A stretch of DNA of 64,000 nt from Methanosphaerula palustris E1-9c (GTDB lineage: Archaea; Halobacteriota; Methanomicrobia; Methanomicrobiales; Methanospirillaceae). Below, one piece after another: positions 18,605 through 61,641 of the stretch (position 1 is its first letter; every line of letters starts with the position of its first letter). The translations under genes and the position numbers were made by a program. Under the pieces are notes generated by a model, which did no database searches, had not been told where the DNA came from, and saw only the letters and a list, made by a program, of their open reading frames with translations. The stretch is from NCBI RefSeq assembly GCF_000021965.1, contig NC_011832.1, forward strand, positions 806,001-870,000, in the 5' to 3' direction.

Positions 18605-19138
18605 CTCTATGATATCTTTCGCATGAACCTCGATCCTGAATAATTTCTAATTGTTAATTCTATCACTGATATGCATACCTGGGGGATTTTCCCTGCATTA
18701 ATACCTGTCAAAGAGATGAATCTCTATATGAGATCATTGGGGGCGAGTCGATCCTGTTTGACCAGAATCTCCTGATGGGGGAATGCGGCATCACCGGTCC
18801 TGGGTGGATATGGTCATCAGAATCAAAGGGGTCTCTCGGGTAGTTTGTAAGCGATTGATATGTTGAAAAATGGTAAAATTCGTTGGATCCCGTTAGATCT
18901 GTTTGTGTGGTTGGGGGCGCCTCTTGTCGCTCACTGTAGTGGATTTTGGGACTCTCTGTATCCTGAATTATTTGTGGTATATTACATAAAATACGCCGAA
19001 ATTGAGAATAAAATCTTGTTTTTTCAGTTTTATGGATGAATCCAATGATGCCCTATTTTAAATATGCGCAATGCATATTGTCATAATGAACTGCATTGCA
19101 TATTTGCTGCGCACGGCAGTTCTTGGAGCGTATCGAAT
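18605..19138. other. Non-coding gap upstream of the first beta-helix gene
   Basis: No gene was recognised in these 534 bases. The base composition drops from GC-rich to AT-rich here and stays low or mixed for most of the next 43 kb. The last 100 bases (around 18970-19060) contain several TATA-like runs that could promote the beta-helix gene at 19139. Confidence 0.5.
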
Positions 19139-21927: not shown

Positions 21928-22676
21928 TATAAGTCTCTGATCACAGACCTCCCTGATGCAGGGGATCTGGTGTATTGTTCCTTTTTTACAGGGTCGACTG
22001 TCTATGTCTCCAGAAGTTCAAATCAATTGTGCACGCATAGTTCTCATTTGCTCTGATTGACGAGTATCTGATGACAATTGTACGCTAATGGAACTGGTTC
22101 GTTTTCTTCATCGGAGATGAGTTCTGGCAGAGTGTCATGGTAGAGGCATCTCCTCTGTGGGGACCAGAACTCTATCTTGGGAATGCATCTCTCTTGTGGA
22201 GATTGTCGACGGAGTTTCCGCTGATTCTGGCGTGGTGTGGAATTGACGTGCTTGGTGCGCGAACTGAGTATTAATAATCTCGATAGGATCCATCACTATC
22301 CATTCATGATAAACGGGGCCTATTTGCGTTCTTCTGGATTTCCACGTTTTGGATGCATTATGAGTCCCTGAGTCGTCCAGGTTATCTCTGTTGTTCATCT
22401 TCTTTAAGGAAAGGTTCTATTCGTAAAAGTTGGGATGAAAGGGATAAGGTTATAGATCTTATATTCCTATTGTGTCTTATTATATCTTTTTGGATCTTTT
22501 TATATCATTGTAGTGTTTAACCTAATATATCTGACAGGTCTCTCAGAATGACTCAGATCCTCTAAGGCACGTGTTGTTCTGCCTCTTTGGGCTCTATAAC
22601 ATCGTGGCCCCGTGGCCCTCCTCATGAGTTGTGAAGGCATTGAACTGACCTCAATGATTATTGGACGATGATTCTG
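21928..22676. other. Long AT-rich gap between beta-helix genes 1 and 2
   Basis: About 750 bases without a convincing gene. A leftward open frame at 22135-22398 (87 codons) has no recognisable feature or ribosome site and is not called. TATA-like runs (for example ttttatatca near 22497) lie within 200 bases of gene 2. The last 35 bases resemble the leader of paralog 4 (ctcaatga ... ttctgatg). Confidence 0.45.
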
Positions 22677-24071
22677 ATGAATGAATATACGGGTTCTCTG
22701 GTAATTATGACTGCAGTATTCATTCTGCTTGTTACAGGTTCTTCGGCTGCTTCAGTATCTATTGAGAAGGATCAGGAGGTACTGTCTGGCCAGTCTGTGA
22801 TTGTCAGTATACCGACAACCTTGCCAACCGTGCCGCTCACATTTGGACCGGTAGATGATGCTGTTGAGGCAGCAGCGTATGCGAATACCGCGTATACTCA
22901 GGGGAATGCCCGCCTTGCCCTGATGGAGCAGGCCTATCGGGCATGGGCCGTTCCGTCCCGACCTGATCTCGTTGAGATTGCCACGAATGTCAGGTCATCA
23001 GGGCTGAAGGGGGATGGTGTCACCGACGATACCGCTGCCCTTCAATCGCTCCTCACCAGTCTTCCATCCGGGTCGACGATCTACTTTCCTCCTGGCCATT
23101 ACCGGATCGATGGGCCTGTCAATATCGATAAACCCTTCACGCTGTTTGGGGAGTCGGGAACCGTATTCGACTGTGAAAGAGCGACACACTATGTCTTCAC
23201 CCTGAATGCCAGGGGCTCGTCCACGTCGACGATGACGGGTATGACCATCACCGGGATCGTCATCGAAGGCCCCGGGATTGAAACCAACCCGGCGATGATT
23301 GACGCCTATTATCTCCAGAACTTCCATGTATCCTACGTAAAGTTTCATAATATCGGGTATGCTGCAATCCGCGTGAACACCTGCACTGATGTCACGATTG
23401 AAAAGTCGATCTTCGATAACGTCTTCCAGTCCGGACTGGGATATGGGATCAGCATCACCGACCGCAGCGATCGGGTATACATCCATGACAACTTCTTTGT
23501 CACCAAAGGAAGGCATTGTGTCACAACCGGAACCAGTCAAACGAACCTGCCGGTGGCAGAATATGTCCAGAGCGTCACGGTCGAGAACAATTATTTCGAG
23601 AACACGACAGAAGGAGCAATCGATGCTCACCTCCAAACGACTGGTCCCTATATCATCCGAGGAAATATCATGAGAAACTGTGTCAGGGGAGTTGATCTTG
23701 GGAGCGGACTAGCGAAGATCACTGATAATGTGATGATCAACTGTAAAAGTGGAGTTGTTTTAACAAATAAAAACGTAGACCCGGATAATCTGGGGTCGAA
23801 AGTTGACAATATTATTGACAATACGATGATCGATATCCTCTACGAAGCCATAGATGTGGACCGGACCAATATCCTGATTCAGGGGAATGTTGCGAAAGGC
23901 ACGGGGAGCGGGACAGGAATATACCTTGAGCCCTATGTCCCACAGACCTGCTCTATCATTGGAAATATAATGGAAGATTATACTCGTGGATTCCATGCAA
24001 GTCTGCCAGGTTCGACGATCTCACAGGAGAATAATTTCCTAAAATCTGGAGAAAAATACTATAGTCTCTAA
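22677..24071 (+). CDS. Secreted beta-helix protein (paralog 2)
   Basis: About 464 residues: a signal peptide or anchor (MNEYTGSLVIMTAVFILLVT, GSSAAS), a short variable region, then the pectate-lyase-like beta-helix (RSSGLKGDGVTDDTAALQSL, IYFPPGHYRIDGP, TGIVIEGPGIETNPAMID). It lacks the extra N-terminal domain and the repeat stalk of paralog 1 but is nearly identical to it over 400 residues. ATG 22677 is chosen by comparison with paralogs 3 and 4; ATG 22668 is also in frame. It ends with NNFLKSGEKYYSL and has no C-terminal anchor. Function is unknown; polysaccharide binding or cleavage at the cell surface is the likely role. Confidence 0.85.
   Translation: MNEYTGSLVIMTAVFILLVTGSSAASVSIEKDQEVLSGQSVIVSIPTTLPTVPLTFGPVDDAVEAAAYANTAYTQGNARLALMEQAYRAWAVPSRPDLVEIATNVRSSGLKGDGVTDDTAALQSLLTSLPSGSTIYFPPGHYRIDGPVNIDKPFTLFGESGTVFDCERATHYVFTLNARGSSTSTMTGMTITGIVIEGPGIETNPAMIDAYYLQNFHVSYVKFHNIGYAAIRVNTCTDVTIEKSIFDNVFQSGLGYGISITDRSDRVYIHDNFFVTKGRHCVTTGTSQTNLPVAEYVQSVTVENNYFENTTEGAIDAHLQTTGPYIIRGNIMRNCVRGVDLGSGLAKITDNVMINCKSGVVLTNKNVDPDNLGSKVDNIIDNTMIDILYEAIDVDRTNILIQGNVAKGTGSGTGIYLEPYVPQTCSIIGNIMEDYTRGFHASLPGSTISQENNFLKSGEKYYSL
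22866..24071 (+). repeat. 1.2-kb beta-helix homology block, copy 2
   Basis: Direct repeat of copy 1, beginning at the segment encoding EAAAYANTAYTQGN. Together the two direct copies could recombine and delete about 2.2 kb. Confidence 0.85.
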
Positions 24072-41312: not shown

Positions 41313-42545
41313 TTATGTGGTGGCAGAGTATTGAAACGAGACATTCTGATAACTACCATTATTGTTCTTAAGATAATTATTCACCAGTGAAATTGATGGA
41401 CTCGGTTTACTCGCCTGGAATCCCTGGATATAATTTTCCATGACATTCCCGATAATATCACAGATCTTGGGGACATAGGGGTCGAGGTAGATTCCCGATC
41501 CACTGTTCATGCCTTTCGCAACATTCCCCTGAATCAGGATATTGGTCCGGTCCACAACCATGGCCTCATAGAGGATATTGATCATCGTATTGTTCACAAT
41601 CCTATCCACTTTCGGCCCCAGATTATCCGGATCGACGTTCATATTGGTTAAAACGATTCCACTCTTACAGTTGATCATCACATTATCGGTGATCTCTGCT
41701 GAACCATTCCCAAGGTCGACTCCCCGGGCACAGTTGTTCATGACATTTCCCCTGATGATATAGGGTCCTGTCGTCACCTTCTGGGCACTGACCGCCTGTT
41801 CTGTCGTGTTTTCGAAATAATTGTTCTCGACCGTGACACTCTGCACATATTCTGCCTCAGGCAGATTTGAGGTACATGTACCCGTTGCAACTCCCTGCCT
41901 TCCCCTGGTGACAAAGAAGTTGTCATGGACGTATATCCGATCGCTGTGGTCGGTGATACTGACCCCATATCCCAGTTCGGACTGGAAGACATTATCGAAG
42001 ATTGACTCCTCAATCGTGACATCAGTGCAGGTGTTCACGCGAATTGCTGCATACCCGATATTATGGAACTTTACATAGGATACATGGAAGTTCTGAAGAT
42101 TATATGCGTCAATCATCGCCGGGTCTGTCTCAATCCCGGGACCTTCAAAGACGATCCCGGTGATGGTCACGCCCTTCAACCTCGACGTGGATGAGCCACC
42201 AGCATTCAGGGTGAAGACATACTGTGTCGCTCTTTGACAGTCGAATACGGTACCCGACTCCCCGAACAGGGTTACCGATCTGTTGATACTGATGGGCCCA
42301 TCGATCCGGTACTGACCGGGAGGGAAGTAGATCGTCGAACCGGATGGGAGTTTCGTAAGGAGTGATTGAAGGGCGGCAGTATCGTCGGTGACACCATCCC
42401 CCTTCAGCCCTGATGACCTGACATTCGTGGCAATCTTAACGAGATCAGGTCGGGACGGAACGGCCCATGCCCGATAGGCCTGCTGCATCTGGGCAAGGCG
42501 GGCATTCCCCTGAGTATACGCGGTATTCGCATACGCTGTTGCCTC
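41313..42545 (-). repeat. 1.2-kb beta-helix homology block, copy 3 (inverted)
   Basis: Inverted relative to copies 1, 2 and 4. With copy 4 it brackets the flippase-to-FemAB module, and with copies 1 and 2 it brackets the segment of nucleotide-sugar and MoxR genes. Confidence 0.85.
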
Positions 42546-42725
42546 AACCGGATTTGTAACAACAGGTGCACTTGTTGTTCCCGATATCGTCGGTTCGCTG
42601 ACAGTTGCTTGTTGATCGGACGCTGACTGATTGCTTTCAATAGTTACTGGAATAGCAGAAGAACTCGTAACTAGCAGGACGAACACCGCAACCACAATTA
42701 TCAAAGATTTGATATATCCATTCAT
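41313..42725 (-). CDS. Secreted beta-helix protein (paralog 3)
   Basis: 470 residues, on the opposite strand to the other three paralogs. Signal peptide MNGYIKSLIIVVAVFVLLVT, a short Ser/Thr-rich region, then the shared beta-helix (RSSGLKGDGVTDDTAALQSL, IYFPPGQYRIDGP, VTITGIVFEGPGIETDPAM). It is closest to paralog 4, sharing for example IVLTNMNVDPDNLGPKVDRI. The C-terminus differs (YLKNNNGSYQNVSFQYSATT). The ATG at 42723-42725 follows ggtgaaggt and gives a good signal peptide; the longer frame back to 42782 is not needed. Confidence 0.85.
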   Translation of the reverse strand: MNGYIKSLIIVVAVFVLLVTSSSAIPVTIESNQSASDQQATVSEPTISGTTSAPVVTNPVEATAYANTAYTQGNARLAQMQQAYRAWAVPSRPDLVKIATNVRSSGLKGDGVTDDTAALQSLLTKLPSGSTIYFPPGQYRIDGPISINRSVTLFGESGTVFDCQRATQYVFTLNAGGSSTSRLKGVTITGIVFEGPGIETDPAMIDAYNLQNFHVSYVKFHNIGYAAIRVNTCTDVTIEESIFDNVFQSELGYGVSITDHSDRIYVHDNFFVTRGRQGVATGTCTSNLPEAEYVQSVTVENNYFENTTEQAVSAQKVTTGPYIIRGNVMNNCARGVDLGNGSAEITDNVMINCKSGIVLTNMNVDPDNLGPKVDRIVNNTMINILYEAMVVDRTNILIQGNVAKGMNSGSGIYLDPYVPKICDIIGNVMENYIQGFQASKPSPSISLVNNYLKNNNGSYQNVSFQYSATT

Positions 42726-43066
42726 AACAATTACCTTCACCACCTCACTATGCGCAATTGTATTTATTATTATCCAAAACACTGCTGTGTTTCTTAAATT
42801 ATGAAGGTTTTTCGTTCAAGAAAATGGACGTCGCGGCGTTTTTACCATTCGGTTATGCCAAATAAAAGATGGTAGAGGCGGTTGCATGATGGTGCTTGCG
42901 AAAGCGTGACCTTCCTCTATCGGGATGGGAATCTGCAGCACTACAGCAGAAGAACTTAATATGTGGTGTGCTATTACCATCCAATTATTTCAGAGATTCT
43001 GTCATCTGATTCAGGAGAGAACTCCGGATTGTATATAGAGGGAAACCCGACCAGCGATCTGATTCC
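42726..43066. promoter_or_regulatory. Divergent promoter region, beta-helix 3 and flippase
   Basis: 341 bases with no gene recognised. The two flanking genes are divergent, so both promoters must lie here. AT-rich runs near 42770-42790 and 42955-42990 are candidates. No strong operator was seen. Confidence 0.4.
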
Positions 43067-44635
43067 ATGGCCCTAAACTCGCCCCCCAAAAAAGATACTA
43101 CCAACAGCCGTTTTGCCGCCCAACTCCCCCTGAACCTCGCGGCAAACATCGCCTACTTCCTAGTCAACGTTGTCATCGGGGTCCTCCTTGTACCATATTT
43201 CATCAGTACCCTCGGTGTTGCGGCCTATGGGCTCATCCCGCTGGCGACCTCGATCACCGGGTACGTGGCGATCGTGGTCCAGTCGCTCAACTCCGCCGTC
43301 ACCCGGTTTCTCACCGTCGACCTTCAACGGGATGACTTTGCGGCAGCGAATCGAACATTCAATACCGCCCTCTTCGGCCTCTCTGCGATCATTCTCCTGA
43401 TGGTTCCGGTCGTCCTCGTGGTAGCATGGTTTGTCCCGACGATCTTCAGCATCCCGGCCGGACAGGAGAACGACGCAGTCCTCCTCTTCCTTGGAGTATC
43501 GGCCGCTTTCATAATAAGGTCCTGGAGCGGGAACTTCACGGTTCAACTCTTCGCTTACAACCGCCTCGACCTTCAGAACCTTGTCAACCTCACTAATGTC
43601 CTTGTCCAGACCGGGTTTATCGTCCTCTTCTTCGTCCTCCTCGGTCCGAATCTCGCCTTCATCGGCGGGGCCTATCTGGCCGGAGCCATCATAGCATCTG
43701 GTGTTTCGATCGTCCTTGCCCGACGAGTCTCTCCAAATCTTTATGTCTCGATCCGCTCCTTTGATCGCAGAAGGGTTCGGGATCTCTGCGGGATGGGGTG
43801 GTGGTCGGTGGTCGACCAGATTGGTTCCCTTCTCTTTCTCCAGATCGACCTCATCGTCGTGAACCTTTTCTTTGGGGCGACATCTGCAGGGGAGTACGCG
43901 ATCGCCCTTCAGTGGGTGGTGCTCCTGCGGGCGATCTCAGGTGTGCTCGCCGGGGTGCTGACCCCGATGTTCCTCACCTATTATGCGAAGGGGGAGATCG
44001 AGACCCTGATCCGGGTCTCGAAGAGTGCCGTCAAACTGATGGGGCTCGCCATGGCACTCCCGATAGGACTGGTATGCGGTTTTGCTCCGCAACTCCTCAC
44101 GGTTTGGGTTGGTCCCGACCTGGTTTTCCTCGCTCCTCTCATGATCCTCCTGACGATGCATCTCGCTGTAAATCTTGCAGTACTCCCTCTCTTCTCGATA
44201 GAGGTTGCCTATAATCGGGTGCGGGTGCCGGGGATCGTAACCCTCTTTGGAGGAATCGGAAACTTCACCCTGGCGATCTCCCTCGCCCTGTTCACTGGTT
44301 GGGGGTACTATGGTGTTGCTGTTGCGGGTGCGATCGTGCTCACCCTGAAGAACACCCTCTTCACCCCCCTGTACTCGACCCGAATCCTCGGTGTTGGTGT
44401 TCACACCTTCACCCGATCGATGCTCCCCGGGATCGGCGCCGCCATCCTCCTCGGAGTTCTGGCTACTGTCCTGGGCACGCTCTTCTCCCTCACTGCTCTG
44501 ATCCCCCTCACCATCGCTGGCGGGTCCCTCGCTCTGGGATACCTTCTCCTCGTATGGAGGTTCGGACTGTCATCATTTGAACGCGGGTTGTTTGGATCTT
44601 ATCTCCCCGAGAACCTTCGGAGGTTTCTTCAATGA
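43067..44635 (+). CDS. Wzx-type polysaccharide flippase (MATE/MOP superfamily)
   Basis: 522 residues with 12-14 membrane helices (for example LNLAANIAYFLVNVVIGVLL, VLVVAWFVPTIFSI, LAFIGGAYLAGAIIASGVSI, IPLTIAGGSLALGYLLLVW). The early VPYFISTLGVAAYGLIPLATS and the LLFLQIDLIVVNLFFG segment match polysaccharide-export flippases that move lipid-linked oligosaccharides across the membrane. GC content is high compared with adjacent parts of the island. It overlaps the next gene by four bases (ATGA). Confidence 0.9.
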   Translation: MALNSPPKKDTTNSRFAAQLPLNLAANIAYFLVNVVIGVLLVPYFISTLGVAAYGLIPLATSITGYVAIVVQSLNSAVTRFLTVDLQRDDFAAANRTFNTALFGLSAIILLMVPVVLVVAWFVPTIFSIPAGQENDAVLLFLGVSAAFIIRSWSGNFTVQLFAYNRLDLQNLVNLTNVLVQTGFIVLFFVLLGPNLAFIGGAYLAGAIIASGVSIVLARRVSPNLYVSIRSFDRRRVRDLCGMGWWSVVDQIGSLLFLQIDLIVVNLFFGATSAGEYAIALQWVVLLRAISGVLAGVLTPMFLTYYAKGEIETLIRVSKSAVKLMGLAMALPIGLVCGFAPQLLTVWVGPDLVFLAPLMILLTMHLAVNLAVLPLFSIEVAYNRVRVPGIVTLFGGIGNFTLAISLALFTGWGYYGVAVAGAIVLTLKNTLFTPLYSTRILGVGVHTFTRSMLPGIGAAILLGVLATVLGTLFSLTALIPLTIAGGSLALGYLLLVWRFGLSSFERGLFGSYLPENLRRFLQ

Positions 44636-47142
44636 AATCCTCGGTTATTGCCACAGTGGTTGAGAACGGTCTCTGCATCGGCTGTGGTCTCTGTGCAGCC
44701 CTCTGTCCGACCGGATCGCTGACAATGCAATGGAACCTAAACGGCGAGTACAACCCGAAAGAGACGAAGCCGTGCACGATCGCGTGCGGCCTCTGCCTGA
44801 GGATCTGCCCCTTTGCCGATACGGGTGAAGACGAGGATTCGATTGGGAAAGGACTCTATGGGGGTGTGCCGGGGATCGACCACCGTCCGGAGACCGGCTA
44901 CTACCTTGCCGTGTACAGGGGTTACTCGGAGCGGTATCGGCCGGCAAGTTCCTCGGGTGGGGTGGCAACCTGGATCCTGGACTCTCTGCTCGCTGCGGGT
45001 GTCGTCGACCATATCGTCTGTGTCGTTCCCACCGGTGACCCGGAGAGACTCTTCGCTTTTCAGGTCTTCGAGACTCGGGAGGACGTGCGCTCAGGCGCCG
45101 GCTCGGCATATTACCCGGTTGAACTGTCTGCAGTCGTCAGACATATCCTCGAAACACCGGGACGGTATGCCGTCACCGGCCTGCCCTGCTTCATCAAGGC
45201 GATCAGGCTCGCACAGCAGAGAAACGCAACGTTACGGGAGCGAGTCGTCGTCTGTGTCGGCCTCACCTGCGGGCAACTGAAGAGCAGGCACTTCACTGAT
45301 TACATCGCCTCCCTTGCTGGGGTGACGGGGAAGGTGACGGGGGTGTGCTACCGGGGGAAGAGCCCGGACCAGCCGGCGAGTAATTATCACTATCGTTTCA
45401 CCACCGCTGACAGGAATGAACGAAAGATATTCTGGAACGATGGGATTGCCGAGGCATGGACAAATCTCTGGTTCACTCCGAAGGCCTGCTGTTACTGTGA
45501 CGATATCTTCGCCGAGTGTGCCGATGTGACCTGTATGGATGCCTGGTTGCCGGAGTATTCGAGGGATTATCGAGGGACAAATCTGGTGATTATACGGTCG
45601 CCCCTGCTCCAGGATCTCATCTCAAGGGGTATAATGGATGGAGAACTACAAGCAGATCCTGCTCATATTCAGGATGTCATCCGCAGTCAGGCTGGGGTTA
45701 TAGAATTCAAGCGGCGCTCTCTGACATATCGATTGCATCTTGGTTTGAAGAGAGGGGAGAAGGTCCCGGGAAAGCGGGTTGGCCCCGAAAGACCGCCTCG
45801 TTTCATTCAGCGAGAGGTCGTTATGAAAGACCATGTGCGTGCGTCAGTTCAGAGCCTGTGGATAAAAAACCCGAGTGCAGAACACCTCAGAGAGAAGATG
45901 TGGTTGAGTATGAAACTGTTAGCATTCAGAAGCCGAATGATCAGGATAATAACATTGCCGATGAGAGGAACGAGACATATTTATCGTACGAAAATCCCGG
46001 GAATTTTAAAGAAAAATTCCATTAATGATTCTTATATACAATCCCCCTCCCATGCGACGATACTTCAAAACGCCCGCGAATCTTTGAATATCCCGACATA
46101 TGATGGATCAAATCAGATGGTTCATCCCTCGGTCATAGATTTTCTTGCAGAGCACGGTCTCCCTCAGTGGGGAGGTTTCCGCTTCTGGATGGTGATCACA
46201 CCGTATCCCTATGGTAATGATGCCTCCGAGAATCCATCCATCTATACCAGTAACGATGGAATAAACTGGTTTGTACCACCCCGTATCAACAACCCGATTG
46301 ATTATGCACCCGGAGGATGGGATCAGGGGTTCAATAACGATCCGGATATGGTGTATGATCCCGACCAGGATGAGATTCGTGTCTATTTCAGATTTGCATC
46401 CACCGATCACCTGAACGTGAAACTCGTCAGAATATCGAATGATCACGGTGTCAGTGAACCAATTACGGTGATATCCCAATCTCCATGGACTCAATCGGAT
46501 AATACCCACCGTTCGCTCTGTATCTGGAGGGAATCATCCCGTCGATGGCATATGTGGGGTGGGGGAGGAACAAAAACTCCGCCATACAATCTCTTCTATC
46601 GGTTCAGCGAGGACGGGATTCATTGGGAATCCCCCATCATCTGTCTGAATGATGAAGGGAATGATCCCTTTCAGGCTCTGGGTTACTCAAGCTGGCATAT
46701 CTCCTGTAAACCCAATTATTGTGAAGATCGGATAGAATTTTTAAGTTATGCAACACCGGTTTCATCAGAAGGTAAAGGAGTCCTTCTCTATGCCGAATGC
46801 TCTATGGGGAGTCCAACGCTTTTTCGAACTCCGATTGTTCAACCTATCCTACGCCCCTCGGAGTATGGTTGGGACAACGGCACCCTCTATCGGTGCAGTT
46901 TTTGCATAACCAACACGGGGGGTTGTTATTATTACCGAATCTGGTATTCTGCAGAATCCCATAACAATATCTGGAAACTGGGGTATACCGGGGGGTATAT
47001 TGGAACTGAATACAATAATGACCAGAAATCACCGGTTCATGAAAAGAATGGAGAACCAACGTCTTGTCATGGGAGATTCCGTGATTCCATCCAGGATCTG
47101 CATTGTTCTTTTCATTCGAGGGACACGGGAGGTGATTTCTGA
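44632..47142 (+). CDS. Fusion: FrhB-type Fe-S oxidoreductase plus beta-propeller
   Basis: 836 residues in one unbroken frame. Residues 1-about 420 are an F420 hydrogenase/dehydrogenase beta-subunit-like module: two ferredoxin cysteine sets (LCIGCGLCAALCPTG; CTIACGLCLRICPF), then SSSGGVATWILDSLL, TGLPCFIKAIRLAQQ and KACCYCDDIFAECADVTCMD. About 420-485 is a basic linker. From about 485 the protein looks like a GH32/43-type beta-propeller (ENPSIYTSNDGINWFVPPRI; NNDPDMVYDPDQDEIRVYFR; FYRFSEDGIHWESPIICLND). The second half is clearly more AT-rich. ATG 46117 (residue 496) could allow a separate propeller product, as a TATA-like cttatata lies near 46033. It is between a flippase and a pyruvyl transferase. 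Function is unknown. Confidence 0.78.
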   Translation: MKSSVIATVVENGLCIGCGLCAALCPTGSLTMQWNLNGEYNPKETKPCTIACGLCLRICPFADTGEDEDSIGKGLYGGVPGIDHRPETGYYLAVYRGYSERYRPASSSGGVATWILDSLLAAGVVDHIVCVVPTGDPERLFAFQVFETREDVRSGAGSAYYPVELSAVVRHILETPGRYAVTGLPCFIKAIRLAQQRNATLRERVVVCVGLTCGQLKSRHFTDYIASLAGVTGKVTGVCYRGKSPDQPASNYHYRFTTADRNERKIFWNDGIAEAWTNLWFTPKACCYCDDIFAECADVTCMDAWLPEYSRDYRGTNLVIIRSPLLQDLISRGIMDGELQADPAHIQDVIRSQAGVIEFKRRSLTYRLHLGLKRGEKVPGKRVGPERPPRFIQREVVMKDHVRASVQSLWIKNPSAEHLREKMWLSMKLLAFRSRMIRIITLPMRGTRHIYRTKIPGILKKNSINDSYIQSPSHATILQNARESLNIPTYDGSNQMVHPSVIDFLAEHGLPQWGGFRFWMVITPYPYGNDASENPSIYTSNDGINWFVPPRINNPIDYAPGGWDQGFNNDPDMVYDPDQDEIRVYFRFASTDHLNVKLVRISNDHGVSEPITVISQSPWTQSDNTHRSLCIWRESSRRWHMWGGGGTKTPPYNLFYRFSEDGIHWESPIICLNDEGNDPFQALGYSSWHISCKPNYCEDRIEFLSYATPVSSEGKGVLLYAECSMGSPTLFRTPIVQPILRPSEYGWDNGTLYRCSFCITNTGGCYYYRIWYSAESHNNIWKLGYTGGYIGTEYNNDQKSPVHEKNGEPTSCHGRFRDSIQDLHCSFHSRDTGGDF

Positions 47143-48377
47143 TGGATGAAGAAAGACCATTATTTCTTCTTGCAGGGAATGGCCCCTATGCAAACCGTGG
47201 GTGCGAAGCGATCGTCCGGGGAACGACGAAGATCCTTCGGGAGCAGTTCAAGGATCCCCGTTTCATCTGCTTCAGTCACTTCCAGTCTGAAGAGCAATAT
47301 CAAGAACAGTCTCTTTTGGAGACCGACGGGGCGATCGTCCACCTCGCCTCCAGTCTGCTCAATAAAAGATGGGTGATCCAGAATTTCTGGAAACCAGAGA
47401 CCTGGCGCAGGGTCTTACACTACTCTCTTGACCGTGATGCCTTCTCCTATGCCGACATGCTCCCGCATCTAGGTGAAGCGACTGCCGTCCTCTCTGTTGG
47501 AGGGGATAACTATTCTCTTGACTATGGAATGCCGGCCCGCTTCGTCGCCCTCGACGATCTTGTGCTTGCGCATGAACGGGTTCTGGCGATCTGGGGGGCT
47601 TCAGTCGGCCCGTTTGGTGCAATGCCTGACTATGAACGATATATGGGCGACCATCTCAGGAGGATCCCTGGCATCTTTGCTCGTGAGTCGGCCACCATCG
47701 AATACCTGAAGAGCATCGGAGTTAAGGAGAATGTGTATCCTGTTGCAGACCCGGCATTTCTCATGGATCCGGTGCGGCCGGAGGAGGAGATGCCCATCGA
47801 GGAGGGTGCGATCGGTCTCAACCTCAGTCCATTGATGGCGAAGTTCGTCACTGGTGGCGATCTGGAACGGTGGAGAGTGATGGCGGGAGCGATCATTGCG
47901 GAAGTGGCAGGAAGAACGGAGAGACCAGTCTATCTGATCCCTCATGTGGTAAATCTTGATTCAAATGATTATTCTTTTATGCAAAGCGCACTATCCGAGA
48001 TTCCGGGGGAAAAAAAGAATATTACCCTGGTCCCTCCCCGATACACTGCCGCTGAGACGAAGTGGGTCATCAGTCAGATGACACTCTTTGCCGGGTCACG
48101 GACGCATTCAACGATCGCCGCCCTCTCGTCGGGTGTGCCGGCCCTGAGCTTTGCGTACAGCATCAAGGCTCAGGGGATCAACAGGGATCTCTTTGGTCAT
48201 AATGACTACTGTGTGGATCCCCATGATCTCGATGTGGAGAGAACTACCGATCGGATCGTGTCGATGCTGGATGAAGAGGCTTCGATCCGGATGGAATTGC
48301 GAGAGCGTATTCCTGGTGTTCAGAAGCTGGCACGAGATGCTGGAATAGGGCTGAAACGACTGATCGGAGAGGAGTGA
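47142..48377 (+). CDS. Polysaccharide pyruvyl transferase
   Basis: 411 residues of the CsaB/WcaK family that adds ketal pyruvate from PEP to a sugar. It opens LFLLAGNGPYANRGCEAIVR and has VLSVGGDNYSLDYG, LAIWGASVGPFG, IFARESATIEYLKSIGV and the late GSRTHSTIAALSSGVPALSFAYSIKAQGI motif with the catalytic-region Arg/His. FrhB-type proteins are frequent neighbours of this family in exopolysaccharide clusters. Its first base is the last base of the preceding gene, so the two are translationally coupled. Confidence 0.92.
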   Translation: MDEERPLFLLAGNGPYANRGCEAIVRGTTKILREQFKDPRFICFSHFQSEEQYQEQSLLETDGAIVHLASSLLNKRWVIQNFWKPETWRRVLHYSLDRDAFSYADMLPHLGEATAVLSVGGDNYSLDYGMPARFVALDDLVLAHERVLAIWGASVGPFGAMPDYERYMGDHLRRIPGIFARESATIEYLKSIGVKENVYPVADPAFLMDPVRPEEEMPIEEGAIGLNLSPLMAKFVTGGDLERWRVMAGAIIAEVAGRTERPVYLIPHVVNLDSNDYSFMQSALSEIPGEKKNITLVPPRYTAAETKWVISQMTLFAGSRTHSTIAALSSGVPALSFAYSIKAQGINRDLFGHNDYCVDPHDLDVERTTDRIVSMLDEEASIRMELRERIPGVQKLARDAGIGLKRLIGEE

Positions 48378-48378
48378 T

Positions 48379-49344
48379 ATGCCAGATATACCCACTGTCT
48401 CGGTTGTCATCCCCCTCTATAACAAAGAGCCTTATATCGCCCGTGCACTGAACTCGGTCCTTGCCCAGACCGTTCAGGACTTTGAAGTGCTCGTCGTCGA
48501 CGATGGCTCCACCGACGGCGGGGTGAAGGTCGTCAGAGGGATGAGGGATCCGCGGATCCAGCTGGTTCAACAGGAGAACTGTGGGGTTTCTGCTGCGAGG
48601 AATAGGGGAATTGAGGAGTCGAGGGCGGCGTTGATCGCATTCCTGGATGCGGATGATGAGTGGCTGCCTGCCTTTATCGAGACAATTGTGCGGTTACAGG
48701 CATTGTATCCTGATGCCGGCCTCTTTGGGACAGCATATGAGGTCGATTTTCCTGGTTCTATGGTGCCGAGGATCTATAGGAAAAGCCTGGGAGATAGGCT
48801 GCTTTCATCATATTTTGGTGCACTCGTACAGTTTGGATCCATGATCTTCAATTCATCTTCGTTTGCTGCTCCAAAGGATGTTCTTATGGATGTGGGGGGC
48901 TTCCCCTCTGGTGTACGATGGAATGAAGATGGTACGCTGTGGGGGAAGATTGCACTTCACTATCCTGTCGCCTATAGCCCCGATGTTTGTTCTATTTACC
49001 ACCAGTACTCAGCAAACAACTCTTCTGGAATTACAGAATATCTGAAGAATCCATTTCTTCAGTATATTTCCACCATTCCCCCTGAAAAAATGATGAATCG
49101 TGACGATGCAGGAGACCTCATGGAGTACAGCGATCTCTGTCGACTTGCAACCATTTCATACAATATCAACTCCGGTTATGGGAAAAGAGCAAGGGCGGAG
49201 TTATTATCGGTGACATCCCCTCGCTATACCTGGAAAAAGTACAAACTTCGGGCTATTTCGTATCTTCCCCCCCCAATAATGGGAATGATACGTAACCATG
49301 CAAAAACCCTGTCGTACCTGAAGAGAAAAATAATTCACACGTGA
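48379..49344 (+). CDS. Family 2 glycosyltransferase
   Basis: 321 residues with a GT-A domain: VSVVIPLYNKEPYIARALNS, DFEVLVVDDGSTDGG, GVSAARNRGIEESRAALIAF and the LDADDEW metal-binding DxD. It has no membrane helix and probably transfers a sugar in the cytoplasm to the lipid-linked oligosaccharide. GC content is higher in the first 90 codons than in the rest. The ATG follows the pyruvyl transferase stop directly. Confidence 0.92.
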   Translation: MPDIPTVSVVIPLYNKEPYIARALNSVLAQTVQDFEVLVVDDGSTDGGVKVVRGMRDPRIQLVQQENCGVSAARNRGIEESRAALIAFLDADDEWLPAFIETIVRLQALYPDAGLFGTAYEVDFPGSMVPRIYRKSLGDRLLSSYFGALVQFGSMIFNSSSFAAPKDVLMDVGGFPSGVRWNEDGTLWGKIALHYPVAYSPDVCSIYHQYSANNSSGITEYLKNPFLQYISTIPPEKMMNRDDAGDLMEYSDLCRLATISYNINSGYGKRARAELLSVTSPRYTWKKYKLRAISYLPPPIMGMIRNHAKTLSYLKRKIIHT

Positions 49345-49761
49345 TTTTAAAGACAACGTCATGAGTAGTTGATGGTTGTTTGGACACGACTTCCTCTCAA
49401 AAACAAACCGTCTTTCTGCTCGATCAGTGGCATCGGTCAATATGGGATTCCCCCATGGTAGCGGGTCAATAACAATTCTTTGAAACCCGACAGGTTCACC
49501 TGGAGACGATCGATATCCCTCTGGTGTGCGCCAGTTCTGGGGATGTCACTTTTTATTAAAGGACAATTCCTGTAAAATTGGGAATTTTTAAATATTAATA
49601 CGTATATTTCCCTCCACTCCAACATATCTTCATCCGAGGATATGATCTCAAATGAAAATGAGGTCGGTGCACAGGGATCTTCTCGGACGAGAAATCTGCC
49701 TGGAAGAGAGTATGGATCTCTAATCTCCCTGAACGATCGGCCTCTTGAGGACTGGTTCATC
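49345..49761. other. Gap with the second copy of the 30-bp element
   Basis: No gene is seen in the first 240 bases; the leftward frame at 49437-49763 mirrors the repeat. The element at 49587-49616 probably drives the deacetylase operon. The deacetylase frame extends back to an ATG at 49642 but that extension has no similarity to the family. Confidence 0.45.
49587..49616 (+). repeat. 30-bp promoter-type element, copy B
   Basis: Exact match to 39861-39890. It lies about 145 bases upstream of the deacetylase ATG at 49762 and 26 bases upstream of an alternative ATG at 49642. Flanking bases diverge. Confidence 0.8.
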
Positions 49762-50685
49762 ATGAATAAAAGGAATGCAAGTCTTTCGGTAACTGTTGAT
49801 ATTGAGGATTGGTATCATATTCCTTCAGTCTGTGGCTCCTCATTTTCTACCTATCCAGATGTAGATGGTTTTTTTAAGCACTGGCATGGGCGCTATGATT
49901 ACTTGACAGAACCAACCATGCGGGTCTTGACCCTCCTTGACCGCTATCATATCACGGCAACCTTTTTTGTCGTGGCTGATGTTGTTGAACATTATCCTGG
50001 ATTGGTTGAATCAATTGTCGATCAGGGACATGAAATTGCCTGTCATGGATTACATCACGAATGCAAGATAGATTCTGTAACAAAAAAACCTCGTTTTGGA
50101 AGGGACGATTTTGAGGAGAGAACCAGAAAAGCAAAGCGAATTCTGGAGAAAGTATCTGGCGAGAGGGTGGTTGGTTACCGGGCTCCGAATGCACTCATCG
50201 GTGGATGGATGCTCGATTCCTTGGAGAAAATAGGTTTTCTTTATGATTCATCAGTATGCGTCAATTCATTTTACAATAAGACTGATTCTATGTTGAACGG
50301 TGTATCCACAGATCCATACCATCCGAAAATTCATGGTTTGGAATCGACCATAAATTCTGATAGATCTTTTATTGAATTTCCATGGGCACATTTAGATATT
50401 GGAATGAAAATTCCCACATCCGGTGGACCTATGTTGAGATTTTTGGGTGCACACATTATTCAAAAAGGGATTCATCAGAGTTTAAGCCGTGGTCATACTG
50501 TATTTTATTTTCATCCCATCGATCTTTCCCATGAAACATTTCCAAAAGTTGGCAATAAAAGGCGATTTTACTGGATTATTAAAGGGAGCGTTGTTGAAGA
50601 TCGAGTGAAACAAATACTGGATGGCAATAGTAGCGTACAATATACTTGTTTAAGAGATTATGTGGAGGACGGATATGGATTATAA
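49762..50685 (+). CDS. Polysaccharide deacetylase, exosortase-cluster (DUF3473) type
   Basis: 307 residues (longer if ATG 49642 is used). CE4 motifs: SVTVDIEDWYHIP (DxED base), TATFFVVADVVEHYP, IVDQGHEIACHGLHHECK (metal His), VGYRAPNALIGGWMLDSLEK and the late TVFYFHPIDLSHETF. The order and HPID ending recall the deacetylases of bacterial exosortase/PEP-CTERM polysaccharide clusters. There is no signal peptide. The stop overlaps the FemAB gene by 11 bases. DNA is strongly AT-rich. Confidence 0.85.
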   Translation: MNKRNASLSVTVDIEDWYHIPSVCGSSFSTYPDVDGFFKHWHGRYDYLTEPTMRVLTLLDRYHITATFFVVADVVEHYPGLVESIVDQGHEIACHGLHHECKIDSVTKKPRFGRDDFEERTRKAKRILEKVSGERVVGYRAPNALIGGWMLDSLEKIGFLYDSSVCVNSFYNKTDSMLNGVSTDPYHPKIHGLESTINSDRSFIEFPWAHLDIGMKIPTSGGPMLRFLGAHIIQKGIHQSLSRGHTVFYFHPIDLSHETFPKVGNKRRFYWIIKGSVVEDRVKQILDGNSSVQYTCLRDYVEDGYGL

Positions 50686-51724
50686 TCTATCGTATGTTTC
50701 AGATAACCATTGTCAAAAATGGGATGATTTTCTTCAAAAAAATGATGATAGCAATGTATTTCAGCAATTCGGATGGAAAGAAATTATTCGGAAGGTTTAT
50801 GGTCCTAAACCCTATTATCTGGTAGCAGAGGATGAGTCTGGCACAATCTGTGGAAGTCTGCCCTTATTCCTTGTAACCGGTCTTCTCTTTAAGAAAAAAT
50901 TAATATCCGTCCCTTATGTACCTTATGGTGGAATCTGTTGTACTGATGATACGGTACGAGAAAAATTGCTCCTTGAAACGCTCTTATTAGTTGAAAAATT
51001 GAAGATTGATAACCTTGAGATCCGATCCGATCATTGTCAAATCTCTCCTTTTGATGACATCAACTCCCCCCTGTCGATGTATACCAATTATTCAACTTTT
51101 TTTCTGGACCTGTCAAAAAGTGTAGATCAGGCCTGGGCGGATATTGGTAAGAATAAAAGGAATAGGGTTAGAAAAGGAGAAAGCCTGGGGCTTAAATATG
51201 AAATATGTAATGGAGATAATGATTCGATCGATGAATTTTACGAAGTGTACTCTGTGAACATGAGAAGATTGGGCACCCCTGTGCATGATAAACGATTCTT
51301 CAGGGCAATCTCCAGTACGTTTAAAGATACAATGTATGTAGCGAACGTGTTATTTCATAACGATGTCATTTGTTCTCAGATTCTATTGGGGTATAAGGAT
51401 ATCTTAATCTCTGGGTGGGGTTCGTCATTACCTGAGTGCCGGAAATTTTCTCCAACCAATCTCTTGGACTGGAACTCGATAAACTTTGGGCATGAAAATG
51501 GCTACAACTGGTTGGATTTTGGGAGAAGCCCGGTTAATTCTGGAAATTATAATTATAAAATGAGATGGGGTGCTCGGGAAGTTCCATTACATTATTACTA
51601 CCTGAAAAAAAAGGGATATATCTCAAATCAAAATAAATATTCACATCTATCGAGATACTGGAGTAAAATTCCCCTGTCGGTTACAAAGATTGTTGGACCT
51701 CTGATAAGAGGAAAAATTGAATGA
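50675..51724 (+). CDS. FemAB/GNAT-like aminoacyl or acyl transferase
   Basis: 349 residues opening MDYNLSYVSDNHCQKWDDFL and containing NVFQQFGWKEIIRKVYGPKPYYLVAEDE, the SVPYVPYGGICC segment, NKRNRVRKGESLGLKY, FGRSPVNSGNYNYKMRWGAR and a central PTNLLDWNSINFGHENG. This matches the double-GNAT FemAB-like family that attaches amino acids or acyl groups in bacterial EPS and peptidoglycan pathways. ggagg about six bases ahead chooses ATG 50675. It follows the deacetylase with overlap. Substrate unknown. Confidence 0.82.
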   Translation: MDYNLSYVSDNHCQKWDDFLQKNDDSNVFQQFGWKEIIRKVYGPKPYYLVAEDESGTICGSLPLFLVTGLLFKKKLISVPYVPYGGICCTDDTVREKLLLETLLLVEKLKIDNLEIRSDHCQISPFDDINSPLSMYTNYSTFFLDLSKSVDQAWADIGKNKRNRVRKGESLGLKYEICNGDNDSIDEFYEVYSVNMRRLGTPVHDKRFFRAISSTFKDTMYVANVLFHNDVICSQILLGYKDILISGWGSSLPECRKFSPTNLLDWNSINFGHENGYNWLDFGRSPVNSGNYNYKMRWGAREVPLHYYYLKKKGYISNQNKYSHLSRYWSKIPLSVTKIVGPLIRGKIE

Positions 51725-51868: not shown

Positions 51869-51999
51869 TATTTTGAGTTCATCTCACTACTCATCCTACG
51901 CTTCTCATATCGGTGGAGTGCAGTAGTACTCAATGATATGAGGGCTGCGGAATACTATGAGTTTGGGACGGCCTCAATGACTGCTGTTAGGTGGTTCTG

Positions 52000-53355
52000 A
52001 TGGATGGGCATAGTAGATCCATTATACTTGTTGCCGTTATGTTCATTCTGATTGCTGTTGGGTTCTCTACTGTATCAGTTATTATTGATGTGCCTCAATT
52101 TCTGTCAGAACATATCGAAAATGTCGATAATCCGATCACGATGGGTTCTCTATTTACCACTGTTGAGGCGGTGACAAAAGCGAATACTGCATATACCATG
52201 GGGAATACCCGCCTTGCCCAGATGCAACAGGCCTATCAGGCATGGGCCGTTCCCTCTCGACCGGATCTCGTTAAGATTGCCACCAATGTCAGGTCATCCG
52301 GGCTGAAGGGGGATGGTGTCACCGACGATACTGCCGCCCTTCAATCGCTCCTTACGAAACTCCCATCTGGTTCGACGATCTACTTCCCTCCCGGTCAGTA
52401 CCGGATCGATGGACCGATCCGCATCAATAAACCAGTAACTCTGTTCGGGGAGTCGGGAACCGTATTCGACTGTCAAAGAGCGACACAGTATGTCTTCACC
52501 CTGAATGCCAAAGGCTCGTCCGCGTCGAGGTTGAAGGGCGTGACCATCACCGGGATCGTCTTTGAAGGCCCCGGGATTGAAACCGATCCGGCGATGATTG
52601 ATGCCTATTATCTCCAGACCTTCCATGTATCCTATGTAAAGTTCCATAATATCGGGTATGCAGCAATTCGCGTGAACACCTGCACTGATGTCACGATTGA
52701 GGAGTCAATCTTCGATAACGTCTTTCAGTCCGGACTGGGATATGGGGTCAGTATCACCGACCACAGCGATCGGATATACATCCATGACAACTTCTTTGTC
52801 ACCAAAGGAAGGCATAGCATCACAACCGGAACCAGTAACACAAACCTGCCTGAGGCAGAGTATGTGCAGAGTGTCACGGTCGAAAACAATTATTTTGAAA
52901 ATACAACCGAACAGGCGGTCGATGCACATAAACCAACCGCTGGACCCTATATCGTCAAGGGCAATGTCATGAACAACTGTGCCCAGGGAGTCGACCTCGG
53001 GAATGGTTCAGCGGAGATCACCGATAATGTGATGATCAACTGTAAGAGTGGAATCGTTTTAACCAATATGAACGTTGATCCGGATAATCTGGGGCCTAAA
53101 GTGGATCGGATTGTGGACAATACGATGATCAATATCCTCTATGAGGCCATAGATGTCGACCGAACCAATATCCTGATTCAGGGAAATATTGCGAAAGGTA
53201 CGAAGAGCGGGTCTGGAATAATAATCGCGGAGTACTCCCCCGACTCCTGTAAAATTGTTGGAAATATATTGGATGATTTTAATCGTGGGATCCAGATCGG
53301 TATTCCCGGTCCAGGGATTTCATTGGAAAATAACGCTGAAATTTCAACTCAGTAG
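52000..53355 (+). CDS. Secreted beta-helix protein (paralog 4)
   Basis: 451 residues. Signal peptide or anchor MDGHSRSIILVAVMFILIAV, a short variable stretch, then the shared pectate-lyase-like helix (RSSGLKGDGVTDDTAALQSL, IYFPPGQYRIDGPIRI, VTITGIVFEGPGIETDPAMI). It is closest to paralog 3. The extreme C-terminus differs (IIIAEYSPDSCKIVG ... NNAEISTQ). ATG 52000 is chosen: aggtgg precedes it and the same ATG register is used in paralogs 2 and 3. It lies between the FemAB and DUF354 genes and may bind or cut the polymer they help to build. Confidence 0.85.
   Translation: MDGHSRSIILVAVMFILIAVGFSTVSVIIDVPQFLSEHIENVDNPITMGSLFTTVEAVTKANTAYTMGNTRLAQMQQAYQAWAVPSRPDLVKIATNVRSSGLKGDGVTDDTAALQSLLTKLPSGSTIYFPPGQYRIDGPIRINKPVTLFGESGTVFDCQRATQYVFTLNAKGSSASRLKGVTITGIVFEGPGIETDPAMIDAYYLQTFHVSYVKFHNIGYAAIRVNTCTDVTIEESIFDNVFQSGLGYGVSITDHSDRIYIHDNFFVTKGRHSITTGTSNTNLPEAEYVQSVTVENNYFENTTEQAVDAHKPTAGPYIVKGNVMNNCAQGVDLGNGSAEITDNVMINCKSGIVLTNMNVDPDNLGPKVDRIVDNTMINILYEAIDVDRTNILIQGNIAKGTKSGSGIIIAEYSPDSCKIVGNILDDFNRGIQIGIPGPGISLENNAEISTQ
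52165..53355 (+). repeat. 1.2-kb beta-helix homology block, copy 4
   Basis: Direct with copies 1 and 2, inverted with copy 3. It is closest to copy 3. Confidence 0.85.
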
Positions 53356-60468: not shown

Positions 60469-61641
60469 ATGGGGCATGTATTCAGTACGACCTGTGTCCT
60501 GGTGCTGGTGTGCTGCGGCGTTCTGGTCGCGGCGGTATCTGGGGAGTATGTGTACTCGGCTCAGTGGGGTAGTTCCGGTGCCGGGATCGGGCAGTTTGAT
60601 CATCCTGGTGGCGTTGCCGTCGACAGTGCCGGCAATGTCTACGTGGCGGACACTGAGAACGATCGGATCCAGAAGTTCACCTCCTCAGGCACGTTCGTAA
60701 CAGTGTGGGGGAGTTCTGGCACCGGGATCGGACAGTTCGCCCATCCGGACGGAGTCGCCGTCGATGGTGCCGGCGCTGTCTACGTGGCGGACACTGAGAA
60801 CGATCGGATCCAGAAGTTCACCTCCTCTGGTTCCTTCCTTGGAGGATGGGGTAGTTCCGGCTCGGGGGCTGGGCAGTTCAACGCTCCGACCAGCCTCGCT
60901 GTCGATGGTGTGGGAAGTATCTATGTTGTCGATTCGTGGAACGATCGGGTCCAGAAGTTCACCTCTTCCGGTTCCTTTCTCGCAGCGTGGGGGAGTCACG
61001 GGTCCGGGGTTGGAGAATTCGACGAGCCCTTTGGCATCGCGGTCGATGGAACCGGCAATGTCTACGTAGCCGATACGTATAACAACCGGGTTCAGAAATT
61101 CACGTCCGCTGGCCTCTTCGTCTCCACCTGGGGCACCTCCGGCACCGGGACCGGACAGTTCAACTGGCCCTGGGGTGTCGCTGTTGACAGTGCCGGCGCC
61201 GTCTATGTGACTGATGTGTGGAATAACCGGATCCAGAAGTTCACGTCTGCCGGTCTCTTTGTCTCCACCTGGGGCACCTCCGGCACCGGGCCCGGACAGT
61301 TCACCTGGCCGTATGGCATCACGATCGATGGGGTCGGCCAGGTCTATGTGACCGATGAATGGAACAATCGGATCGAAGTTTTTGTTTCATCTGGAGAACC
61401 GACCCCGACGCCGGTCCTGGTCACGGTCATCCCAGGTGGTGTGGGGGTCCCGACCAGTCCCGATAATGACGGGCTCTTCTGGGATCTGAACGGGGACCAG
61501 AGGGTCGATTTCAATGATGTGGTGCTGTACTTCAACCAGATGGATTGGGTCGCGGATAATGAACCCATCAAAGCGTTTGACTTCAATAAAAACGGTGTAA
61601 TCAACTTTGATGATATCGTTCTCCTCTTCAATCGTCTGTAG
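60469..61641 (+). CDS. Secreted NHL-repeat propeller with dockerin-like tail
   Basis: 390 residues. A signal peptide (TTCVLVLVCCGVLVAAVSG) is followed by six NHL repeats of about 47 residues each (core GQFDHPGGVAVDSAGNVYVA, DTENDRIQKF), enough for a six-bladed propeller. A Pro/Thr hinge (SSGEPTPTPVLV) leads to two calcium-loop sequences, DLNGDQRVDFNDVVLYF and DFNKNGVINFDDIVLLF, arranged as in a type I dockerin. Neither a cohesin nor a membrane anchor is seen. It is probably a surface or matrix binding protein. DNA is GC-rich, unlike most of the island. Confidence 0.88.
   Translation: MGHVFSTTCVLVLVCCGVLVAAVSGEYVYSAQWGSSGAGIGQFDHPGGVAVDSAGNVYVADTENDRIQKFTSSGTFVTVWGSSGTGIGQFAHPDGVAVDGAGAVYVADTENDRIQKFTSSGSFLGGWGSSGSGAGQFNAPTSLAVDGVGSIYVVDSWNDRVQKFTSSGSFLAAWGSHGSGVGEFDEPFGIAVDGTGNVYVADTYNNRVQKFTSAGLFVSTWGTSGTGTGQFNWPWGVAVDSAGAVYVTDVWNNRIQKFTSAGLFVSTWGTSGTGPGQFTWPYGITIDGVGQVYVTDEWNNRIEVFVSSGEPTPTPVLVTVIPGGVGVPTSPDNDGLFWDLNGDQRVDFNDVVLYFNQMDWVADNEPIKAFDFNKNGVINFDDIVLLFNRL

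Follow-up and report, generated by a model that had tools for sequence, protein, structure and literature searches.

The 64,000-nt window that we analysed (from the fen methanogen Methanosphaerula palustris E1-9c, contig NC_011832.1, positions 806,001 to 870,000 of the forward strand) contains a surface-glycan operon in which one gene joins an FrhB-type Fe-S oxidoreductase to a beta-propeller related to the N-acetylgalactosamine (GalNAc) deacetylase of Flavonifractor plautii. The gene is a single unbroken ATG-to-TGA frame, and the start of the pyruvyl-transferase gene that follows overlaps its stop codon (TGATG), the Shine-Dalgarno sequence of the latter gene (GGAGGTGAT, at ~47128-47136) lying inside the tail region of the fused gene (Table 1). 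The GC content falls along the gene from ~0.60 to ~0.46 toward the propeller, and at third codon positions the GC fraction of the FrhB part (0.64) exceeds those of the linker (0.39) and the propeller (0.47). Divergence follows a coding pattern in each half and peaks at the third codon position. An earlier note on this DNA, made from the sequence alone, had described one frame with a ferredoxin-bearing FrhB-type module, halves of differing base composition and flippase and pyruvyl-transferase genes next to it, and had known of no such pairing; the first four points are borne out, and the fusion was found in no relative that we searched, i.e. in one of the 232 genomes of the order Methanomicrobiales, that of M. 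palustris. The domain anatomy of the fused protein is well supported, and each half has known relatives; it is the combination that is new among the genomes searched.

Table 1. Features of the fused gene and its neighbours (window coordinates; residue numbers refer to the fused protein)
Feature	Coordinates	Strand	Evidence
Flippase (PF01943), upstream neighbour, kept in relatives	43067..44635	+	
Shine-Dalgarno-like GGAGGT of the fused gene	44619..44624	+	
Fused ORF (open reading frame), FrhB-type Fe-S oxidoreductase + GalNAc-deacetylase-like propeller, 836 aa	44632..47142	+	ORF reading, Pfam, phmmer
Two [4Fe-4S] ferredoxin motifs, C15-C18-C21-C25 and C48-C52-C55-C59 (residues 9-63)	44656..44820	+	Pfam Fer4
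FrhB_FdhB_N (residues 94-169) and FrhB_FdhB_C (residues 178-344), with C286, C289, C296	44911..45663	+	
Helical C-terminal tail of the FrhB part (~residues 391-458); relatives terminate at the equivalent point	45802..46005	+	
Fusion junction/linker (~residues 459-469), low pLDDT, no in-frame stop or start codon	46006..46038	+	
Propeller domain (~residues 469-792), F. plautii GalNAc deacetylase family	46036..47007	+	phmmer, hmmsearch, AlphaFold2/Foldseek
In-frame ATG (residue 496), not a credible start	46117..46119	+	
E533-N534-P535, invariant; E533 aligns with chain E84 of 6n1a	46228..46236	+	
D570, invariant; aligns with chain D120 of 6n1a	46339..46341	+	
W688-H689, invariant; align with chain W271-H272 of 6n1a	46693..46698	+	
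W747-D748, invariant	46870..46875	+	
C-terminal tail of the fused protein, 44 residues, unconserved, low-confidence in AlphaFold2	47008..47142	+	
Polysaccharide pyruvyl transferase (PF04230), downstream neighbour, kept in relatives	47142..48377	+	
Family 2 glycosyltransferase (GT2)	48379..49344	+	

Analysis of the N-terminal half with Pfam reveals Fer4, FrhB_FdhB_N and FrhB_FdhB_C matches over residues 9-344, with PF04422 and PF04432 passing their gathering cut-offs (93.9 and 60.5 bits vs 23.3 and 22, respectively). The eight ferredoxin cysteines as well as C286, C289 and C296 are invariant in the fused protein and three aligned relatives, and by sequence residues 1 to ~458 make up a complete Fe-S/FrhB-type oxidoreductase module. 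It shares the FrhB_N/FrhB_C and Fer4 modules with the FrhB/FpoF/FdhB F420 oxidoreductases (PDB 8riu, 8rja) at a weak sequence match, but falls far under the NCBIfam equivalog cut-offs (51.5 of 444 and 48.9 of 475 bits for the FpoF models, 19.6 of 331.5 bits for frhB); because these scores reach about a tenth of the cut-offs, we classify the half as a member of the FrhB family that is not a classical F420 hydrogenase or F420H2-dehydrogenase subunit. Close FrhB orthologs (E<=1e-20) are present in five other genomes among the 108 of the family, in one of which (G032) the ortholog is interrupted by a contig end. The remaining four (G097, G103, G043, G076) possess the identical gene order, flippase - FrhB - pyruvyl transferase, with orthologs of residues 1-458 (48-61% identity) encoded as separate frames of 456-482 codons, each sharing a few bases at its stop with the start of the pyruvyl-transferase gene. 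They end at a position equivalent to residues 450-458 of the fused protein, i.e. at its helical tail, and none carries a propeller or has one encoded before the pyruvyl transferase.

The propeller half is matched by no Pfam or NCBIfam model. A phmmer search against solved structures gave a sole strong match, to the F. plautii enzyme (6n1a, 9.4e-17), and in a profile hmmsearch 6n1a/6n1b scored 7.4e-40, the runner-up being a GH43 (glycoside hydrolase family 43) arabinanase at 0.002 across 66 residues. The AlphaFold2 model, for which we used an alignment of 23 homologs with the Subdoligranulum plasmid row (see below) left out, has a mean pLDDT (predicted local distance difference test) of 84.6, and its top Foldseek match is 6n1b (1.1e-19, TM-score 0.72); the GH130, GH43 and GH32 propellers follow with E values no better than 1e-8. 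On sequence and predicted fold, the half can thus be placed in the family of the F. plautii GalNAc deacetylase (FpGalNAcDeAc; P0DTR4). The GH32/GH43 likeness seen by the earlier note holds for the fold class, that of glycan-active five-bladed propellers; we reject it as a family assignment given the lack of a Pfam match, the short and marginal GH43 hit, and fold matches more than 10 orders of magnitude weaker.

Across 24 homologs nine residues are invariant (E533, N534, P535, D570, W688, H689, W747, D748 and Y753), and the fused protein retains all of them. In 6n1a, the chain residues aligned with E533, D570 and H689 are E84, D120 and H272, presumably the published active-site E64, D100 and H252 of FpGalNAcDeAc; the fused protein thus retains these putative active-site positions. 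The two proteins thus have a homologous propeller of common fold with the E/D/WH/WD positions kept, but they differ in that the identity in the structural alignment is ~22% and that the M. palustris propeller shares its chain with an FrhB protein of cytosolic type, encoded within a methanogen biosynthetic operon. The F. plautii deacetylase carries a carbohydrate-binding module (CBM) and is paired with a GalNase (PMC11762096).

At the junction, FrhB homology ends at ~residue 458 and propeller homology to the stand-alone archaeal homolog (see below) starts at ~471, both in one frame, ~12 codons apart and without a stop. In the full-length AlphaFold2 model, residues 416-454 form a long FrhB helix, which a stretch of low confidence (454-474) separates from the propeller. 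In-frame start codons close to the junction (45961, 46084, 46117) all lack a proper Shine-Dalgarno sequence, in contrast to the starts of the fused gene and of the pyruvyl transferase. The in-frame ATG at 46117, to which the earlier note drew attention, is indeed there, but it makes a poor start, because it lacks a Shine-Dalgarno sequence and would remove the family-invariant T489-Y490; it lies within the conserved block TYDGS-Q-x-HPS, also 3' of the near-invariant N480-A481. We likewise rejected an internal start at TTG 46084, where the Shine-Dalgarno sequence is absent and conserved residues would be lost. We looked for repeats flanking the insertion and for target duplications, and found only short, chance-like repeats. 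A possible duplicate of the FrhB tail 3' of the propeller (47050-47147, +1 frame, '..SRICIVLFIRGTREVISDG*', ending at the pyruvyl-transferase start) resembled the C-termini of the relatives, but was discarded on shuffles against those relatives (p 0.065-0.88) and the lack of a DNA match.

The propeller itself is present in two of the 232 genomes of the order, the second being a member of another Methanomicrobiales family (G328). Its homolog (L022:9441-10598) is an unfused, stand-alone ORF of 385 codons with 62% identity to the fused propeller across 324 aa, located between genes for a UDP-sugar dehydrogenase and a PF04230 pyruvyl transferase, with an NAD-dependent epimerase also in the neighbourhood, and in the tree the two form one clade (support 100/99). 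The repeated proximity of propeller and PF04230 gene in two methanogens is suggestive only; the PF04230 proteins concerned differ in size and score. A distant relative was found within a 911-aa protein (G399), while weak matches in three further genomes (G149, G259, G330; E ~1e-4) were lost with a larger alignment, and single-sequence patterns found no propeller in viral contigs. Among Desulfosporosinus-class bacteria, homologs occur in 18 of 83 genomes (G468-G522; loci L024-L049), mostly at 35-40% identity and sometimes in multiple copies, e.g. the metagenome-assembled genome of Desulfosporosinus sp. SbF1 from peat soil has five matches, some of them decayed. These proteins belong to the same family and retain the invariant residues, but are stand-alone and without FrhB; many begin with Sec- or twin-arginine-like leaders (judged by eye), and one carries CWB2 and Big_4 domains. 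The analysis therefore defines an uncatalogued propeller family, without a Pfam model, that is common in Desulfosporosinus-class bacteria. We also found, on a 13.5-kb Subdoligranulum plasmid (L014:118-3053), a GH31-family gene beside a CBM-bearing deacetylase-like propeller, a pair that resembles the F. plautii GalNase/deacetylase pair in plan. As the halves are separate in all homologs, the fusion is specific to the M. palustris genome. The simplest history is transfer of the propeller from bacteria to Methanomicrobiales, a direction suggested by the distribution of homologs, followed by fusion in the M. palustris line.

The explanation that we favour, with a probability of roughly 0.6, is a lineage-specific in-frame fusion, in which a laterally acquired FpGalNAcDeAc-family propeller was joined to the last codons of a resident FrhB oxidoreductase of a surface-glycan operon, yielding a cytoplasmic bifunctional glycan-tailoring enzyme. 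The joint function of the halves is what we infer. A cytoplasmic location is predicted from the absence of a signal peptide and the cytosolic type of the FrhB half. The FrhB half may transfer electrons (F420/flavin/Fe-S) on or for a glycan intermediate, while the propeller, with a bound divalent metal, would take the N-acetyl group off an N-acetylhexosamine of that lipid-linked glycan during its growth; the products of the adjacent pyruvyl-transferase and flippase genes would act later. The fusion would mainly ensure that the activities for two tailoring steps are expressed together and kept in one place. The earlier note had proposed a redox step coupled to recognition or cleavage of one glycan; N-deacetylation is better supported than cleavage, and the coupling is hypothetical. 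That an oxidoreductase and a metal-dependent N-deacetylase act in sequence on one lipid-linked sugar, a bacterial exported deacetylase having been re-housed in the archaeal cytoplasm for glycan biosynthesis, is a tentative and rather unlikely proposal in this full form. F. plautii is a gut bacterium whose enzyme deacetylates a blood-group-A sugar. The favoured explanation would assign a GalNAc deacetylase fold of the blood-group-A type to the biosynthesis of archaeal surface glycans, and the fused partner together with the conserved pyruvyl-transferase neighbour offers a testable clue to the role of FrhB-type proteins in methanogen polysaccharide operons.

Several observations weigh against this explanation. 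With the fusion confined to a single genome, it is impossible to demonstrate that the fused state is under selection. The equivalent of chain H117 of 6n1a, presumably the published H97, an important residue of FpGalNAcDeAc, is F567 in the fused protein; the position varies between H, F and Y across the family, the adjoining N568 being near-invariant, and we did not treat it as defining. The bacterial homologs are apparently exported, so that a cytoplasmic deacetylase would have changed compartment. The full-length AlphaFold2 prediction (predicted TM-score 0.45) models the FrhB half poorly and is unusable for the geometry between domains. Finally, in a 9x Sanger/454 assembly the A5 run of the junction might conceal an indel.

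The most serious competitor, improbable as it seems to us, is a strain-specific accident, in which a propeller gene landed behind FrhB and read-through produced a chimera of which at most one half is of importance, the propeller being a passenger. The restriction to one genome, the separation of the halves in all relatives and the unconserved linker and 44-residue tail all agree with it; the halves are in fact two genes in the homologs, which is one half of what the earlier note had named as refuting its reading. Against an accident, 1 kb of propeller has stayed open in frame with every invariant residue retained, the AlphaFold2 fold of the propeller is confident, and the substitutions relative to the stand-alone archaeal homolog (L022) are biased to third codon positions, though these mostly record history before the fusion. 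A little less probable still is that the propeller is a glycan-binding or targeting module, or a GH43/GH130-like glycosidase or phosphorylase, rather than a deacetylase. GH130, GH43 and GH32 propellers do come next among the fold matches, and both archaeal homologs lie in biosynthetic rather than degradative loci, but 6n1a/6n1b is far ahead of any GH both in the profile search (7e-40 vs 2e-3) and in fold (1e-19 vs 1e-8), and the putative active-site positions are retained. A sequencing or assembly artefact, in which a miscalled base in the AAAAA run at ~46013-46017 masks an FrhB stop (TAA 46023-46025, part of a TAATG stop-start motif in another frame, 46023-46027) between what are really two genes, is very improbable on sequence grounds even in a genome (2,922,917 bp, a single contig here) assembled from Sanger and 454 reads at 9x (PMC4645200), because the FrhB and propeller homologies already share a frame with no stop between them and no supported internal start, so that the two-gene reading, reached by one inserted A, leaves the propeller without a Shine-Dalgarno-bearing start ahead of its conserved N-terminal block, and the frame opened by the ATG of TAATG closes after 20 codons.

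Elsewhere in the window we noted other proteins. Four paralogous pectate-lyase-like beta-helix proteins (PF12708) with near-identical cores are scattered in the glycan region (19064-21889, 22668-24071, 41313-42782 on the reverse strand, and 51991-53355), the first of which has a linker of tandem PTTVSTPIPTAI repeats. At 49642-51724, a polysaccharide deacetylase and a FemAB-like protein recall the XrtA/PEP-CTERM exopolysaccharide set of bacteria, yet the genome is archaeal (TIGR03006, 129 bits; TIGR03019, 255.2 bits, slightly below the cut-off of 260.35). At 60469-61641, this methanogen also encodes an NHL-repeat propeller with a terminal dockerin-like/EF-hand segment.

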